Shown here piece after piece: positions 43,967-51,048 of a DNA stretch of 64,000 nucleotides. Source of the stretch: Halarcobacter bivalviorum (GTDB lineage Bacteria; Campylobacterota; Campylobacteria; Campylobacterales; Arcobacteraceae). A model generated the notes under the pieces. The model searched no databases. It was not told the origin of the DNA and worked only from the letters and a program-made list of their open reading frames with translations. The first letter of the stretch is position 1; each line of letters opens with the position of its first letter. The stretch spans positions 62,001 to 126,000 of the forward strand of contig NZ_CP031217.1 in assembly GCF_003346815.1 (NCBI RefSeq), given 5' to 3'. The position numbers and the translations under genes were made by a program.

Positions 43967-44449
43967 ATGAAAGCTTTATTTTTATTAATCTTATTGATAA
44001 GTTCTTTATTTGCTTTACCAGATGAATTTGATAGAGAAAAATATAATACAGGTGAAAAAGTTTTTGATAATAAATGTAGTGAATGTCACGAAAAATCCAT
44101 GGATATACAACTTCTAATGAAAAATTTTATTGAAGAAGATAATAAACTATTAAACTTGAAAGCTCCTACAGGAAATGAGATCTCTTTTAGGCTAAAAAGC
44201 CAAATAGGAAGTAGAGAGGATATAGAGTTTCAACTTCATGAAGCTACAGATTTTGTAAAAGATTATTTATATAACCCTGATAGGTCTAAAACAATCTGTT
44301 TAGAAGGAGTTATTAGACACTTTAAAACAATGCCAAGTATGAAAGGTAAAGTTACAGTAGAAGAGATAGAAGATGTAACTTTTTTCTTATACTTTTTAGA
44401 AGGTTTTAATGATGTAAATGAGTATTACCATAAAGAGGATGACTTTTAA
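43967..44449 (+). CDS. Periplasmic monohaem c-type cytochrome
   Basis: A 160-residue protein with a Sec signal (MKALFLLILLISSLFA) and one haem motif CSECH near residue 38. A Met in the region TMPSMKGKV near 130 could be the sixth iron ligand. It is probably an electron carrier or part of an oxidase or nitrate/sulfur respiration path. Good ribosome site AAAGGAG. It converges on a kinase gene with a 4-base overlap. The kinase-regulator pair beside it may control it. Confidence 0.85.
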   Translation: MKALFLLILLISSLFALPDEFDREKYNTGEKVFDNKCSECHEKSMDIQLLMKNFIEEDNKLLNLKAPTGNEISFRLKSQIGSREDIEFQLHEATDFVKDYLYNPDRSKTICLEGVIRHFKTMPSMKGKVTVEEIEDVTFFLYFLEGFNDVNEYYHKEDDF

Positions 44450-45621
44450 AGTTTTTCCTCTTTTGGTAATTTAAATGTAAAAATACTTCCTTGACTTTCA
44501 ACTGATTTAACATCTATTTTTATACCATAAGTTCTACAAATATGATATACAATATTTAGTCCAACTCCAAAGCCACCTTGCTCTTTTGTAGCTCTATAAT
44601 ATCTTTTAAAAATATCTTTTAATCTATCTTTTTTTATACCTATTCCACTATCTTCTACAATTAGAGTATGGTTTTTTAGTGAAACACTAATTTCTCCACC
44701 AATTTTATTGTATTTAATAGCATTTGAAACAACATTATTAAACATTCTAATAAAACTCTCTTTATCTATTTTAAAAGCAGTTCTCTCTAAATTAGAGTTG
44801 ATAGTTAATTTCTTTTTTGTGGCGAAAGCCTGAAAATATTCTAATTGTTCTTTTATAACATCATCAAGATAAATCATTGTAGGTTCATGTATTTTTTTAT
44901 TATCTTGTAAAAATAGATAAACTAAATCTTTATATATCTCTGAAATTCTTTTTGCACTTAGATTAATTCTTTGCATATTTTTTTCTGTAAGTGGAGCATC
45001 TTTTCCTGTTGACATTAAAATTGCTGTAATTGGTGTATTTAATTCATGTGTAGTATCTTTAATAAAAGTATTTAATTTTCTTCTTTCATTAATAATAGGG
45101 TCTATAAATAAGTTTGCAAGATAATATCCTACTAAAGAGATTAGTGCAAAAATCAAGATAAAATAAAAAATAATATCTTCTAATAGTTCAGTTCTAATTT
45201 TCTTAAAACTATTTTCTTGAATAGCAATATGAAAAACTCCAAGATGACCTCGTGGACTACTATCAACTAAAACATAATCCCCTTTGATTTTTTGTATAGC
45301 TTGATTTATATCTACTTTTATATCTATATTTCCTGCTAATTTAACATGATTTTTATCATATAGGGCATATTTATATTGGATACTATTTGATATTTTAGAT
45401 GTATCAATCGCAAGATTTGACATATCAGCATAGATAATATTTGCAGAAATCTTTGAAGCAATATTTTGCATATTTGAAGAGACTAAATCATAATAGAGTT
45501 TATACTCAATTTTATAAAATTGCCAAAAAATAATTGTAAGTAAGATAAAAGAAGAACCTAGATATAAACCTAAGAATCTAAAAAATGTGGTTTTTTCATT
45601 TCTTGTTAAATCTATAACCAA
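44446..45621 (-). CDS. Sensor histidine kinase (EnvZ-like topology)
   Basis: The 391-residue kinase has two membrane helices (about residues 14-35 and 148-170) enclosing a periplasmic sensor of about 110 residues, then the phospho-His box KDTTHELNTPITAIL near 192, N-box NNVVSNAIKYNK, G1 box VEDSGIGIKKD and G2 box GFGVGLNIV. It overlaps the regulator gene upstream by 26 bases. The regulator is divergent from yceI. Signal unknown. Confidence 0.92.
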   Translation of the reverse strand: MVIDLTRNEKTTFFRFLGLYLGSSFILLTIIFWQFYKIEYKLYYDLVSSNMQNIASKISANIIYADMSNLAIDTSKISNSIQYKYALYDKNHVKLAGNIDIKVDINQAIQKIKGDYVLVDSSPRGHLGVFHIAIQENSFKKIRTELLEDIIFYFILIFALISLVGYYLANLFIDPIINERRKLNTFIKDTTHELNTPITAILMSTGKDAPLTEKNMQRINLSAKRISEIYKDLVYLFLQDNKKIHEPTMIYLDDVIKEQLEYFQAFATKKKLTINSNLERTAFKIDKESFIRMFNNVVSNAIKYNKIGGEISVSLKNHTLIVEDSGIGIKKDRLKDIFKRYYRATKEQGGFGVGLNIVYHICRTYGIKIDVKSVESQGSIFTFKLPKEEKL

Positions 45622-46255
45622 CCCCTTTTATTGTTTCAATGTACTCTTCTCCTACAATTTTTCTAATATTTTTAATATAAGTTCTAATAGTTGAAGATGT
45701 AGGTGCTGATTCATATGACCAAATATTTGACGAAAGTTCATCTTGAGAAACACATCTATTTGTATTTTTTAAAAGATACTTTAAAACTTGTGCCTCTTTA
45801 AGTGGTAACTTTGTTTTAATTCCATCATAATCTATATAGTTTAGTTTTGTATTAAACTTTATATTGTCCCCAATAGTAAGTTCGTCTGTATCAAGATGTA
45901 ATAATCTTTTAATATTATTTATTCTAAGCTCTAACTCTTTAAGTTCAAAAGGTTTTTTTAAATAGTCATCTGCACCTGCATTAAAACCTTCTTCAATATC
46001 TTCAATTGAGTTTAAAGAGGTAATAAAAATAGCAGGAGTAGTAATAGACTCCTCTCTTAAACTTTTTAAAAAATCAAAACCTGTAATAGTTGGAACGTTT
46101 ACATCAAGGATAAGTAAATCAAATTGTTCATCATACATAATTTCACTTGCTTTCATCCCATCATATACACAAGTTACTTCATATCCTAAATCTTGTAAAA
46201 ATTCTTCAATTATTTCATTTAATATTAAATCATCTTCTAGTAGTAAAATTCTCAT
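45596..46255 (-). CDS. OmpR/PhoB-family response regulator
   Basis: A 219-residue regulator with receiver domain (EDD near residue 8, Asp in LLILDVNVPTITG near 52, Lys in KKPFELKE) and winged helix ending with IKGVGYRFNKK. I start at ATG 46255; a TTG two codons upstream is also in frame. There is no ribosome site, and a TATACT box ends 6 bases before the ATG, so the mRNA may be leaderless. It is divergent from yceI, and CTACACA repeats lie in the shared promoter. Confidence 0.9.
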   Translation of the reverse strand: MRILLLEDDLILNEIIEEFLQDLGYEVTCVYDGMKASEIMYDEQFDLLILDVNVPTITGFDFLKSLREESITTPAIFITSLNSIEDIEEGFNAGADDYLKKPFELKELELRINNIKRLLHLDTDELTIGDNIKFNTKLNYIDYDGIKTKLPLKEAQVLKYLLKNTNRCVSQDELSSNIWSYESAPTSSTIRTYIKNIRKIVGEEYIETIKGVGYRFNKK

Positions 46256-46288
46256 AGGCAAAGTATATCATACAATAGAGGAATAAAT

Positions 46289-46306
46289 CTACACAGGTGC
46301 TACACA
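46289..46306. promoter_or_regulatory. CTACACA direct repeat, candidate regulator site
   Basis: CTACACA occurs at 46289-46295 and 46300-46306, an 11-base period typical for tandem OmpR-family half sites. It lies in the divergent region between the response regulator and yceI, where autoregulation and control of yceI would be possible. Confidence 0.45.
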
Positions 46307-46362: not shown

Positions 46363-46941
46363 ATGAAATTATTGAGTAAAATATTATTATCATCAGCACT
46401 TGCAATGACATTAGCAAATGCTACACCACATACATTAGATAACATGCATACTGATGTAGGTTTTTCTGTAAAACATTTAATGATTACAAATGTTAAAGGT
46501 AATTTTACTGATTATGAAGGAAAAATTGACTTTGACTATAAAACTAAGACTTTTAATGCTCTTGAAGCAAAAATCAAGGCTACTTCTGTAAATACAGGAA
46601 TAGAAAAAAGAGATAACCACTTAAGAAGTGATGATTTCTTTGCTGCAACTAAATATCCAGAAATTACATTTAAAATGAAATCTTATAAAGCGGAAGCAGA
46701 TGAGGGTGTAATGACAGGTGATCTTACAATTAGAGGTATTACAAAAGAAGTAGAATTAGATGTAGAAGATATTGCTACTATTAAAGACCTTGATGGGAAT
46801 AATAGAGTAGGGTTTACTTTAGAAGGTAAAATTAATAGGATGGATTTTGACCTTAAATGGAACAAAGCCTTAGAGTTTGGTGGAGTTGCAGTAAGTGAAA
46901 CTGTAAAACTAATCATTGAAGTTCAAGCAGTAGAAAAATAA
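46363..46941 (+). CDS. YceI-family periplasmic protein
   Basis: A 192-residue secreted lipocalin-like protein. The signal is MKLLSKILLSSALAMTLANA, followed by the YceI pattern LDNMHTDVGFSVKHLMITNVKG, then FDYKTKTFNALEAKIKATSV, DDFFAATKYPEITFKM and DLTIRGITKEVEL. Family members bind polyisoprenoids in a beta barrel. I choose the ATG at 46363, 4 bases after AAAGGGAG. The divergent regulator and downstream RiPP cluster suggest an envelope-stress or metal context, but no direct evidence shows this. Confidence 0.92.
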   Translation: MKLLSKILLSSALAMTLANATPHTLDNMHTDVGFSVKHLMITNVKGNFTDYEGKIDFDYKTKTFNALEAKIKATSVNTGIEKRDNHLRSDDFFAATKYPEITFKMKSYKAEADEGVMTGDLTIRGITKEVELDVEDIATIKDLDGNNRVGFTLEGKINRMDFDLKWNKALEFGGVAVSETVKLIIEVQAVEK

Positions 46942-46976: not shown

Positions 46977-46982
46977 TATAAT
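46977..46982 (+). promoter_or_regulatory. -10 box of the RiPP precursor gene
   Basis: TATAAT sits 25 bases before the precursor ATG, after an AT-only upstream tract; AAAGGGG (46996-47001 region) is the ribosome site. The precursor therefore appears to have a promoter of its own, separate from yceI. Confidence 0.55.
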
Positions 46983-47006
46983 CGTTATACTAAAAAAGGG
47001 GAAAAA

Positions 47007-47339
47007 ATGAAAAATAAAGCAAAGTTAAAATTAGCTGGTGTACTTTTAGGTGCAGCACTATCTAGTACAGGAGCATACGCAGGTAATGGAGCTTGTGGAG
47101 CTGGAAAATGTGGTGGTGGAGAAGCTAAAAAAATGGAAAAGAAAGGTGCTTGCGGAGCTGGAAAATGTGGTTCTAATGATGAGATGAAAGGTAATGCAGG
47201 TAAAAAAACTTCTGGAGCTTGTGGAGCTGGAAAATGTGGTGCAAACGACAAAGGTGAAGCAATGAAAGAACAAAACATGATGAACAAAGAAGCTAAACAA
47301 AAAGTTAAAGGTTCTTGTGGCGCTGGTAAGTGCGGGTGA
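47007..47339 (+). CDS. HvfA/bufferin-like RiPP precursor with four CGAGKCG repeats
   Basis: A 110-residue low-complexity protein. Residues 1-25 form a Sec signal (cut after AYA). The mature part carries four exact copies of CGAGKCG at residues 30-36, 49-55, 72-78 and 104-110, the last at the very C-terminus, separated by Lys/Glu/Met-rich linkers. It has eight cysteines, all in the repeats. EGKCG-type repeats in HvfA-like precursors are turned by DUF692 (MNIO) enzymes into oxidised cysteine-derived groups that bind copper. The two genes right behind are DUF692 and DUF2063 homologues, so this is very likely such a secreted metallophore-like peptide. Confidence 0.88.
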   Translation: MKNKAKLKLAGVLLGAALSSTGAYAGNGACGAGKCGGGEAKKMEKKGACGAGKCGSNDEMKGNAGKKTSGACGAGKCGANDKGEAMKEQNMMNKEAKQKVKGSCGAGKCG

Positions 47340-47353
47340 AATGGTGAAGATGG

Positions 47354-48187
47354 ATGATAAACATTAAAGGGTGTGGCTTAGGCCTAAGAAGTGATTTTTT
47401 ATTAGATGTGTCTTCTAGTGATTTCCAACCAGACTGGTGGGAAGTTACTCCTGAAAACTGGATGCATATGCCAAAGGTTTATGAAAAGGCTTTTGAAGAG
47501 GCTGTATTTTCAAGACCAACAGTTGCACACGGTTTATCTCTATCTATAGGGTCTGTTGATGGATTAAATAAAAAATTCATCAAACAGATGAAAAAATTCC
47601 TTGATAGGTATGAAATAGAGTACTATTCTGAACATCTTTCTTTCTCTTCAATGAGTGGTAAACAATCTTATGAACTATTACCTGTTCCTATGACTAAAAA
47701 AATGGTACAAATAATAAGTGATAGAGTAAAAGAAGTTGAGGATATTATTCAAAGAAATCTTATTTTAGAAAATGCTACATATTATTATGTACCATATGCT
47801 GAGATGCGTGAAGTTGACTTTATAAATGAAGTTTTAGAAAAGTCAGGTGCAAAAATGCTTCTTGATGTAAACAATGTTTTTGTAAACTCAGTAAATCACT
47901 CCTTTAAAGCAAGAACTTTTATGGATGAACTTGATATAAGTAAAGTTGCATATATGCATATGGCAGGGCATTATGATGATGAAGAATCAGGATTAAAGAT
48001 TGATTCTCATGGAATGCCAGTTGCAAGTAGAGCTTGGAAACTTTTAGAATATACTTTAAAGAAAATCAATGCTCCGGTTATGATAGAAAGAGATAATAAT
48101 ATTCCTCCTCTAAGTGAACTAGAAAAAGAGTATCTTCAAATGAGCGATATAGTAAAAGCTGTTCAACAAGGAAATAAAAGTGCCTAA
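47354..48187 (+). CDS. DUF692 multinuclear non-haem iron oxidative (MNIO) enzyme, HvfB/BufB-like
   Basis: The 277-residue protein has a TIM-barrel pattern and the metal-ligand segments of DUF692: His in VAHGLSLSIGS near residue 58, SEHLSFS near 96, LENATYYY near 137, LLDVNNVFVNSVNH near 175, HMAGHYDD near 203, DSHG near 217, and IERDNN near 241. MNIO enzymes use two or three iron ions to oxidise cysteines of precursor peptides. It begins 14 bases after the precursor stop, and its end overlaps the DUF2063 gene by 8 bases. The product chemistry here is inferred. Confidence 0.9.
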   Translation: MINIKGCGLGLRSDFLLDVSSSDFQPDWWEVTPENWMHMPKVYEKAFEEAVFSRPTVAHGLSLSIGSVDGLNKKFIKQMKKFLDRYEIEYYSEHLSFSSMSGKQSYELLPVPMTKKMVQIISDRVKEVEDIIQRNLILENATYYYVPYAEMREVDFINEVLEKSGAKMLLDVNNVFVNSVNHSFKARTFMDELDISKVAYMHMAGHYDDEESGLKIDSHGMPVASRAWKLLEYTLKKINAPVMIERDNNIPPLSELEKEYLQMSDIVKAVQQGNKSA

Positions 48188-48878
48188 GCAAGTTTTAGAA
48201 AAACAGATACAAGAAAGATTTTTAGATAATCTTTTAACACAAACTGATGAGGTAGCAAACTCTTCTGTAGCCGTGTATCAAAAGCTTGTATATCTAAGAT
48301 ATCATGAAGTTATAAAAAATAGTTTTCCTCTTTTTATGGAAGTTATTAAAGACAAGAGCTTAGAAGCTTCAATAAAAGCCTTTATGAAAAATGCACCTAA
48401 AACTCCTTTTGTATGGCAGATGGCAAATGATTATAGAAAATTTGTAAAGAAAAATAGAATTTTTGATGATAAAAAATATATCTATGAATTGCTTTATTAT
48501 GATTGGATAGAGATAGAACTTTATATGAAAGAGTATAAAGATATAAAACAAAAAAAGTTTTCATATAAAAATAGTTATAAGCTAAGTAAAAGTGCGAGAA
48601 TCAAAAGATTTAAATATGATTTAATAAATAAAGAGCTTACTTCAAAAAGAGAAAACTTTTTAGTGATTTATTATGATTTTGAAACTAATGAGGTAGTTTA
48701 TAGAGAAATAAATCCTATTATTTACTATTTATTAAAAAAATTAGATAAAAAACAAACTATTGGAAACTTATTAAAACAGCTTTGTAAAGAGAACGATATA
48801 GAGTTTAAAGAAGCAAAAAAATTATTATATGAGCCTTTATCTGAGTTAAATAGTAACGGAGTTATTTTCTTTAAATAA
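48180..48878 (+). CDS. DUF2063 partner protein of the MNIO enzyme, HvfC/BufC-like
   Basis: A 232-residue protein with the N-terminal helical DUF2063 pattern: QIQERFLDNLL, VYQKLVYLRYHEVIKNSFPLF near residues 33-53, and FVWQMANDY. The C-terminal half is basic, with a winged-helix-like segment. In HvfBC/BufBC pairs this protein binds the precursor leader and presents it to the MNIO enzyme. Its GTG start lies in the end of the MNIO gene. No DoxX-like fourth gene follows here; a two-component system does. Confidence 0.85.
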   Translation: MPKQVLEKQIQERFLDNLLTQTDEVANSSVAVYQKLVYLRYHEVIKNSFPLFMEVIKDKSLEASIKAFMKNAPKTPFVWQMANDYRKFVKKNRIFDDKKYIYELLYYDWIEIELYMKEYKDIKQKKFSYKNSYKLSKSARIKRFKYDLINKELTSKRENFLVIYYDFETNEVVYREINPIIYYLLKKLDKKQTIGNLLKQLCKENDIEFKEAKKLLYEPLSELNSNGVIFFK

Positions 48879-48928: not shown

Positions 48929-50365
48929 ATGGAAAATAAAACTTTATACTTAAAAATATTAAATAATCTTCCCGAAATAATAGTTTTAATTGTTAATGAA
49001 AATATTATAAAAAACTCTTATGGCAAAATATCTTCTTCAATAAATAATACTCAATTAAGTGAGCATTTTAGTAAAGTCACTTATAGTAAATTAATGCTCT
49101 TAAAACTAAAGAAAATTGATAGTTTAATTATTTGTTGGAATAAGAAAGATTATGAAGTCTCTTGCATCGATGAAATTTACTATTTTAAAGATATCTCCAA
49201 ATATAGAAATATGCATTTACAATTAAAGAAAAGTCTTAGTGATTTGAGATCTAAAAAAGAAGAACTCCGTGCAGTTTTTGATTTGGCAGGGAATGGTATA
49301 TCAATTTTGAATGAAGAAGGTATGTTTATTTATGCAAATAAATTTTTTCAGACAATGATGGAATATACCATGGAAGAACTATATAAAGAATCATGTATCT
49401 CTTTATCTTCTCCTGAATATGCAGAACCTAGTAGAACAGCCGTACAAAAAGCAATTGAAGAAGGAATAGTTGAACGATTTAGAAAGATATGTGTGACTAA
49501 ATCAGGGAAACAGATTAATGCTAGTATGTCTTTAAGTTATATTAAGAGCACAAATGAAATAGTAATGATTACCTCTGATATTACAGAAGATATAAAATAC
49601 CAAGATGATTTAAAAAGAAGAATAAATCAAGAAGTAAAAAAAAGAACAAAACAATATGAAATTATGTGCCATCAATCAAGACTTGCATCAATGGGTGAAA
49701 TGATTGAAGCAATTGCTCATCAATGGAGACAACCTCTAAATAGTTTAAGTATTATTATCCAAGGTTTAAGACACTTATCAAATAGTGAAAGTTTTGATTT
49801 TAAACTATTAAATGAGATTGAAAATGAAATGATTAATAAAATAAACTTTATGTCAGAAACAATTGATGATTTTAGTAACTTTTTTAGAACCTCAAAGGAA
49901 AAGAGATATTTTAATCTTTTAGATAGTATAAAAGATACAATTAGATTAGTAGATATCCAGTTAAAGAATGAAAATATTAAACTTACAATAAATATTGAAG
50001 ATGGTGTTAATTTAGAATTTTTTGGTCTAGAAAATGAATTTAGGCAAGCTTTACTAAATATTATAGATAATTCATTAGATGTTCTAGTTTCAAAGAAACA
50101 ACATAATAGTTTTATCAATATTGATATTACACAAAATGAAAATTTTATTGAACTTAATATTTCTGATAATGCTGGAGGTATCTCTAGCAAAAACTTACAA
50201 AAAATATTTAAACCTTATTTCACTACAAAAAAAGAAGGAAATGGAATAGGTTTATATATGTCCAAAATGATTATTGAACAGAATATGAAAGGAAATTTAT
50301 CTGTAAGAAATAGCCAGAATGGAGCAGTTTTTACTATTTCTTTAAAATCAAAGGAAATGAAATAA
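48929..50365 (+). CDS. Soluble PAS-domain sensor histidine kinase
   Basis: The 478-residue kinase has no membrane segment. Residues 1-100 are a possible degenerate sensor domain with several Ile/Asn-rich strands, then a PAS domain (about 108-230) with a coiled coil, the phospho-His box AIAHQWRQPLNSLS near 265, N-box NIIDNSLDV and G-box GNGIGLYMSK. It senses a cytoplasmic signal of unknown kind. It shares its end with the regulator start (ATAATG overlap) and lies 51 bases after the RiPP cluster, in the same direction. No clear ribosome site precedes the ATG. Confidence 0.88.
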   Translation: MENKTLYLKILNNLPEIIVLIVNENIIKNSYGKISSSINNTQLSEHFSKVTYSKLMLLKLKKIDSLIICWNKKDYEVSCIDEIYYFKDISKYRNMHLQLKKSLSDLRSKKEELRAVFDLAGNGISILNEEGMFIYANKFFQTMMEYTMEELYKESCISLSSPEYAEPSRTAVQKAIEEGIVERFRKICVTKSGKQINASMSLSYIKSTNEIVMITSDITEDIKYQDDLKRRINQEVKKRTKQYEIMCHQSRLASMGEMIEAIAHQWRQPLNSLSIIIQGLRHLSNSESFDFKLLNEIENEMINKINFMSETIDDFSNFFRTSKEKRYFNLLDSIKDTIRLVDIQLKNENIKLTINIEDGVNLEFFGLENEFRQALLNIIDNSLDVLVSKKQHNSFINIDITQNENFIELNISDNAGGISSKNLQKIFKPYFTTKKEGNGIGLYMSKMIIEQNMKGNLSVRNSQNGAVFTISLKSKEMK

Positions 50366-51048
50366 TGGAAAAGATACATACTAAGCTACAACCTTTAACA
50401 TTATTAATTGTTGAAGATGATGAGAGTACTTTAAAATGGTTAGAGAGAATACTTTTAATATATTTTAAAGATGTAAAAGTTGCTAATAATGCAATGGATG
50501 CTTTTGAGATATTTAAAACAGATACTATTGATATAGTAATTGCAGATATACAAATTCCAGAAGTTGATGGCTTACATCTTTTACAAAAAATTGCTATAGT
50601 TAATCCTTCTTGTATTCGAATAGTTATGACTGCTTTTAATAATCAAGTTTATTTAAATAGAGCAATTGATGCAGAAGTAGATTTTTATTTTAAAAAGCCT
50701 ATAGATATTGATGAACTATTAGTTTCTATATCATTAAGTAAAAAGAATAAAACTAAAACTATTGATAAAATAGAATTAAAAAATAATTATATGTATGACT
50801 TTATTCAAAAAGCAATCATAAATGAAGATTTAAAAATAAACTTAACAAAAAAAGAGTCTTTATTATTAGAATTTTTATATGAGAAGAAAAATTTAATTGT
50901 AAGTTTAGAGCAAATTGAAAATGTAGTTTGGAAAGAACCTGTAACAAGTGATGCAATTAGAATGGTTGTATCTAGTCTTAGAAAAAAGTTATATATGAAT
51001 GCAATTGAAAATATAAAAGGGTTTGGGTATAGACTCTCTTTAGAATAA
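50365..51048 (+). CDS. OmpR/PhoB-family response regulator
   Basis: A 227-residue regulator: EDDE near residue 17, phospho-Asp in IVIADIQIPEVDG near 60, Lys in KKPIDIDE near 109, then a winged helix with LTKKESLLLEFLYE and KGFGYRLSLE at the end. It starts at the last base of the kinase gene and ends 76 bases before the flavoprotein gene. It could control either the RiPP cluster or the flavoprotein; no operator is seen. Confidence 0.9.
   Translation: MEKIHTKLQPLTLLIVEDDESTLKWLERILLIYFKDVKVANNAMDAFEIFKTDTIDIVIADIQIPEVDGLHLLQKIAIVNPSCIRIVMTAFNNQVYLNRAIDAEVDFYFKKPIDIDELLVSISLSKKNKTKTIDKIELKNNYMYDFIQKAIINEDLKINLTKKESLLLEFLYEKKNLIVSLEQIENVVWKEPVTSDAIRMVVSSLRKKLYMNAIENIKGFGYRLSLE

Follow-up and report, generated by a model that had tools for sequence, protein, structure and literature searches.

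The question raised by this locus of Halarcobacter bivalviorum is what a small secreted protein with cysteine repeats, encoded beside an MNIO (DUF692) maturase, is made for, and what switches it on. The window, meaning the whole 64,000-nucleotide stretch of DNA that was analysed, comes from a complete genome of one 2.68-Mb contig (99.98% complete) whose nearest relatives are Arcobacteraceae, and which holds one MNIO gene, one DUF2063 gene and one precursor of the CGAGKCG type. The product of the gene set is very probably a periplasmic peptide with modified cysteines that binds copper and belongs to the HvfA/bufferin (captophorin) class. The features of the locus, in window coordinates, are listed below.

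44446..45621, reverse strand: HK1, a CrdS-like sensor histidine kinase (Pfam HisKA/HATPase_c), divergent from the cluster
45596..46261, reverse strand: RR1, an OmpR-family response regulator forming a pair with HK1 (Pfam Response_reg and Trans_reg_C)
46289..46306, forward strand: candidate operator CTACACAGGTGCTACACA, an 11-bp direct repeat and the sole exact match in the genome
46327..46332, forward strand: TAAAAT, a possible -10 element 3' of the operator, suggested by a conserved block (TAaAAT) in 46 aligned boxes
46363..46941, forward strand: gene for a YceI-family periplasmic protein (PF04264, 1.4e-43)
47007..47339, forward strand: precursor peptide of 110 aa, with four CGAGKCG copies and eight cysteines
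47007..47081, forward strand: predicted Sec signal peptide, read from the sequence by eye (ending in TGAYA, before GNG)
47094..47114, forward strand: repeat 1, CGAGKCG, preceded by Ala
47151..47171, forward strand: repeat 2, CGAGKCG, preceded by Ala
47220..47240, forward strand: repeat 3, CGAGKCG, preceded by Ala
47316..47336, forward strand: repeat 4, CGAGKCG, preceded by Ser, at the C-terminus of the protein
47354..48187, forward strand: MNIO (DUF692) maturase of 277 aa (PF05114, 2.3e-86)
47390..47392, forward strand: MNIO Ser13, at the probable place of FonB Arg16, judged from the GLGxRR motif
48095..48097, forward strand: MNIO Asn248, after the catalytic Asp247, at the presumed place of FonB Phe250
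48180..48878, forward strand: PME1-type partner (DUF2063 and NGO1945_C/RRE) of 232 aa, with a GTG start

The sequence-only reading had described a secreted 110-residue protein with four exact CGAGKCG copies, the last ending the protein, followed by overlapping DUF692 and DUF2063 genes. The ORF at 47007-47339, the PF05114 and PF09836 matches and an 8-nt overlap between the MNIO and partner genes agree with this, and its placement in an HvfA/bufferin-like MNIO and DUF2063 class was borne out by domain and structure matches (3BWW and 3DEE, described below). The reading had the precursor, MNIO and partner right and overlooked three upstream elements: YceI, the operator and the two-component system. 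The YceI ATG is preceded by GGGAG, while the listed ORF begins at a TTG further upstream. Within the genus, YceI immediately precedes the precursor at most Arcobacteraceae loci, and it is probably the operon's first gene. The order precursor-MNIO-partner (A-B-C), with paired-Cys repeats, is retained in Arcobacteraceae. MNIO genes were found in 39/399 genomes of an order-level sample, in 37/104 of a family-level sample and in 15/16 within the genus.

It had also been claimed that no DoxX gene follows, which is right locally: there is no HvfX/DoxX gene at the H. bivalviorum locus, and two DoxX genes lie at other places in the genome. One of them, an orphan, just passes the HvfX-family cut-off (81.5 vs 80). 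A DoxX-like ORF is present in 30 of the fetched Campylobacterota loci (in L018 it passes NF050144, 124 vs 80). Many other Campylobacterota loci have an HvfX-type DoxX 3' of the partner, an arrangement missing from the main [S/A]CGAGKCG clade. On the 3' side of the partner gene, a second two-component pair (a PAS kinase and an OmpR-type regulator) occupies window positions 48929-51048. Such a pair also follows the partner in L006, L140, L015 and L152, with an SQR-like gene beyond it in some. The downstream SQR-like gene was considered as a selenoprotein and dropped, as the ORF stops at TAG.

The precursor passes the NCBIfam HvfA-family repeat domain model (NF050137, 21.5 bits, cut-off 19.5) and fails the HvfA equivalog (15.6, cut-off 95); it has no Pfam match to DUF2282 (Buf1). 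The MNIO scores 308 bits against the HvfB family (NF003818), below the cut-off of 360, and the partner scores 80 bits against the HvfC equivalog, below its cut-off of 142. The same product chemistry is thus not assured by these below-cut-off scores. HvfA/FonA-class captophorins carry 5-thiooxazoles on cysteines and bind copper (PMC12668002, PMC13419390, PMC12538549). AlphaFold models of the MNIO and the partner were built from alignments of related loci. The MNIO model (AF2, pLDDT 93.1) had 3BWW as its best Foldseek match (E 1.5e-21), and the metal-site and catalytic residues H59, H94, E139, D171, N173, H202, D217, H219, E245 and D247 were invariant in 51 sequences. The partner has Pfam matches above cut-off to PF09836 (1.3e-7) and PF22106 (2.5e-8). 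Its model (AF2, pLDDT 88.7) best matched 3DEE, the gonophorin partner NgoC (E 2.8e-8), with further matches to TglI (3.8e-7) and to the leader-bound TbiB1 RRE, the latter at a probability of 0.97-0.99 with a weak E of 0.17-0.28. The signal-peptide core KLKLAGxLLGAAL is kept in relatives, and the signal peptide probably doubles as a leader for the partner protein, a role that has been suggested for HvfA (PMC13419390).

The MNIO and its partner are separate genes here. A single long ORF in another genome (L135:1486-3051, G100) matches both, an apparent natural MNIO-PME1 fusion that resembles the engineered HvfBC fusion. In an Arcobacteraceae genome, the MNIO family match is limited to 112 residues (G381:C8:266692-267027) and is perhaps a remnant.

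The precursor contains four AGKCG motifs, which are Lys-Cys five-residue repeats, behind the Sec signal. If cleaved after AYA, the mature peptide would have 85 aa and, in reduced form, an average mass of 8193.3 Da. The four CGAGKCG copies are encoded by three different codon strings, which argues that the peptide was kept and that the repeats are not merely a fresh DNA duplication. Relatives carry 3-5 copies of the unit between variable spacers, so that it is not due to chance. The suggestion that two cysteines set CGAGKCG apart from EGKCG did not hold: HvfA carries three AEGKCGEGKCG motifs, so that its repeats (CGEGKCG) are also paired, and paired cysteines per repeat were rejected as a novelty (PMC13419390). 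The true differences from the HvfA repeats, as read from the sequence, are that Ala replaces Glu between the cysteines and that the Lys before the first cysteine is lost. In 31 Arcobacteraceae-clade precursors, [S/A]CGAGKCG accounts for 111 of 125 units. Throughout the clade, the first cysteine is without Lys at -1 and usually without an acidic residue at -3, while the second keeps its Lys. Arcobacteraceae outgroups (e.g., L029 and L035) retain KCGAGKCG, and the Sulfurospirillum-type precursors have the mirror form KCGAG[S/T]CG.

Precursors and enzymes are not always adjacent. An orphan 92-aa precursor (L183:5874-6152, genome G297; SCGAGKCG, SCGTGKCG and SCGAGKCG) lies behind a box and YceI with no MNIO adjacent; the sole MNIO match of that genome is elsewhere, has Arg13 and is paired with a KCGAGKCG precursor. 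In three Sulfurimonas MNIO loci (L031, L032 and L039), the box stands near -128 relative to the start of the MNIO, and the motif rule gave no precursor.

The enzyme probably differs at sites that matter for substrate choice. FonB Arg16, which governs selectivity at position 1, and Phe250 both shape substrate choice (PMC12668002). FonB numbering was mapped onto the MNIO via shared motifs, with FonB itself left out of the alignment, and on this mapping, Ser13 and Asn248 would stand at those places. Ser occupies the Arg16 place in enzymes of the [S/A]CGAGKCG clade, and in the group with KGKCG substrates, site 13 is Asp, Glu or Asn, an apparent charge swap. Among the loci fetched, ERDN is present in nearly all Campylobacterota enzymes and ERDF in most Pseudomonadota loci. 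Residue 13 was correlated with the charge at substrate position -3 (raw Spearman -0.79). Simulation on the tree supported the link (p 0.003-0.007), and phylogenetic independent contrasts did not (r -0.12, p 0.24). The covariation of site 13 with substrate charge is only suggestive, because there were few independent changes. FonBC turned over poorly when the Glu between the cysteines was changed to Ala (PMC12668002). The precursor here has Ala at that place, which an altered enzyme would account for. The natural changes at the Arg16 and Phe250 places, with matching substrate changes, provide a test of the published specificity model without mutants.

These changes bear on which cysteines would be modified. 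In each pair, thiooxazole formation may be confined to the cysteine that follows Lys, leaving the other as a free thiol and giving a mixed ligand unlike that of oxazolin. The clade-wide loss of Lys at -1, and usually of the acidic residue at -3, from the first cysteine alone points in this direction, as do the mirror-image Sulfurospirillum-type precursors. However, FonBC tolerated Ala before Cys in vitro (EAACGEGACG; PMC12668002), and the enzyme sites have changed along with the substrate, so we consider such a mixed ligand rather doubtful. It would be a sub-case of the copper-buffer explanation set out below, and the two are not exclusive.

The control region suggests what the cluster may respond to. 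A direct repeat, CTACACA-N4-CTACACA (46289-46306), lies ahead of YceI-precursor-MNIO-partner, and a third, degenerate half-site (CTTAACA) extends it to 46317. When distinct upstream regions were searched with up to 2 mismatches, the box was found in 46/68 Campylobacterota MNIO loci and in 0/43 other loci, as compared with 0.25 in shuffles. The enrichment was limited to the 4-nt spacing. The 22 Campylobacterota loci without the box include Sulfuricurvum loci and nearly all of family f4. RR1 orthologs with 82-96% identity occupy the same place in congeners, where the position of HK1 beside the cluster is also conserved, and RR1 is the likely ligand of the operator. The linkage of HK1 as one orthologous system throughout the phylum was not supported, as the Sulfurospirillum-type loci carry a different kinase branch. 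The regulated YceI module also exists alone, in an arrangement CusC-YtkA-HK1-RR1-box-YceI without precursor, MNIO or partner (L178, G132). An exact CTACACA box also lies 5' of a DsbA/thioredoxin-like gene in L184 and L185, a possible further target.

The box and the two-component system recur beside copper-efflux genes. In the H. bivalviorum genome, a paralog of HK1 (50% identical) stands beside YtkA-CusC-CusB-CusA, and the CusA of this locus passes TIGR00914 (1020 vs 701). In several congeners, Cus genes adjoin HK1-RR1-YceI-A-B-C: L167-L169 have CusA, and L170 and L171 have YtkA-CusC-CusB. HK1 and RR1 are thus of a CrdRS type, in that crdAB-czcBA-like efflux genes adjoin the paralog's locus and the system itself in congeners. 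In relatives without an MNIO, the exact box lies directly 5' of YtkA-CusC-CusB (L179 and L180, with CusA following in L179) and directly upstream of a DUF411 gene (L181). A further genome (G435; L142 and L182) has A-B-C-RR-HK-box-YtkA-CusC-CusB-CusA in one array. L170 has a copper-type P-ATPase near the cluster (604 vs 397), L157 has a copper ATPase 5' of the precursor (619 vs 397), and near the cluster of L172 lies a CueO-like oxidase whose score of 462 falls short of the cut-off of 525. Within the genus itself, no box stands 5' of YtkA in the YtkA-CusCBA efflux operon, which could reflect a division of targets once the two-component system had been duplicated. The candidate operator would tie the captophorin cluster to the copper-efflux regulon of relatives, a tie newly described here that a single protein and a single DNA fragment would suffice to test.

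The explanation that we regard as likely is an Arcobacteraceae form of captophorin cluster that makes a copper-induced periplasmic copper buffer. HK1 would sense copper in the envelope, and RR1 would bind the CTACACA direct repeat and switch on YceI, precursor, MNIO and partner. In the cytoplasm, the partner would use its RRE domain to grip the precursor around its signal peptide, and a multi-iron site in the MNIO would serve to oxidise cysteines of the CGAGKCG pairs to 5-thiooxazoles. The modified product would then be exported by Sec, the signal peptide would be cut off, and the eight-cysteine peptide would bind periplasmic Cu(I) alongside Cus-type efflux, with YceI presumably taking part in the same response. 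Several observations stand against this explanation: the scores are below the HvfA, HvfB and HvfC cut-offs, the precursor has the Ala that impaired FonBC, HvfX/DoxX is lacking at the locus, the YtkA-CusCBA operon of the genus lacks the box, a related Microbulbifer cluster was not induced by copper (PMC12538549), and the box is also present in MNIO-less genomes and near the non-copper DsbA-like genes of L184 and L185. We propose more tentatively that this is a distinct Arcobacteraceae captophorin, with a co-evolved enzyme (Ser13 and Asn248), a mixed or differently ordered ligand per [S/A]CGAGKCG pair (thiooxazole and thiol, or a defined bidentate pair), and a CrdRS-type copper box that Cus efflux has as well and that would place buffering and efflux in one regulon.

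The same cluster could also answer to a signal other than copper, HK1 and RR1 sensing nitrosative, envelope or other metal stress and the peptide buffering several soft metals or thiol stress. Nitric oxide is a further signal for the H. pylori CrdRS, and one RNA-seq study did not find crdA among the CrdRS targets (PMC9927306); the box near DsbA-like genes and the differing metals of CusA/CzcA-type pumps are compatible with such a signal. We consider it unlikely given the box directly 5' of YtkA-CusCBA and of the DUF411 gene, and the copper-type ATPases that L157 and L170 carry close to the cluster. It is very unlikely that the repeats bind metal as plain thiols in the manner of a metallothionein, with the MNIO idle or acting elsewhere: eight cysteines in an 85-aa mature region could bind Cu(I) unmodified, but precursor, MNIO and partner remain together in Arcobacteraceae loci, no catalytic residue varies, and enzyme site 13 changes with the substrate. 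Least probable is a secreted, methanobactin-like metallophore for copper uptake, for although MbnB belongs to the same enzyme superfamily, the cluster contains no receptor, importer or dedicated exporter, is linked to efflux genes and has an MNIO that fails the MbnB family model (43.7, cut-off 325). The sequence-only reading of a metallophore or metal-buffering peptide thus stands as to the buffering class, while the tie to the copper-efflux regulon makes copper sequestration more likely than uptake.

The class is known, and what is new is the altered repeat, the matching enzyme changes and the box shared with copper efflux. Together with the YceI gene and the lack of a DoxX gene at the locus, these make it a variant form. 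The literature found on the class concerns mainly Pseudomonadota, and Campylobacterota were absent from the main text where checked. Like HvfABCX/oxazolin of Haemophilus influenzae, the cluster has a Sec signal, paired-Cys repeats and an MNIO with an RRE partner, whereas that system has AEGKCGEGKCG repeats and HvfX in the operon (PMC13419390). It shares Lys-Cys repeats and an MNIO with PME1 with fontiphorin (FonABC) and gonophorin (NgoABC) (PMC12668002); unlike in fontiphorin, substrate position 1 is without Glu, and FonB Arg16 and Phe250 would be Ser and Asn. Bulbicupramide (mmrABC) of Microbulbifer is similar in its di-Cys cassettes and its MNIO and DUF2063 pair, but has EGKCG units and expression that is not copper-responsive (PMC12538549). 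The bufferins Buf1 and Buf2 are Sec-exported, MNIO-modified copper buffers (PMC12452194), as the product here is predicted to be; unlike Buf1, the precursor has no DUF2282 match. In H. pylori, CrdRS drives CrdAB-CzcBA upon copper (PMC12319023). By gene neighbourhood, and not by direct sequence comparison, the arrangement here is like that system in joining a two-component system to a small secreted protein, an outer-membrane protein, an adaptor and a heavy-metal RND pump, and differs from it in that the related system and its box adjoin an MNIO cluster.
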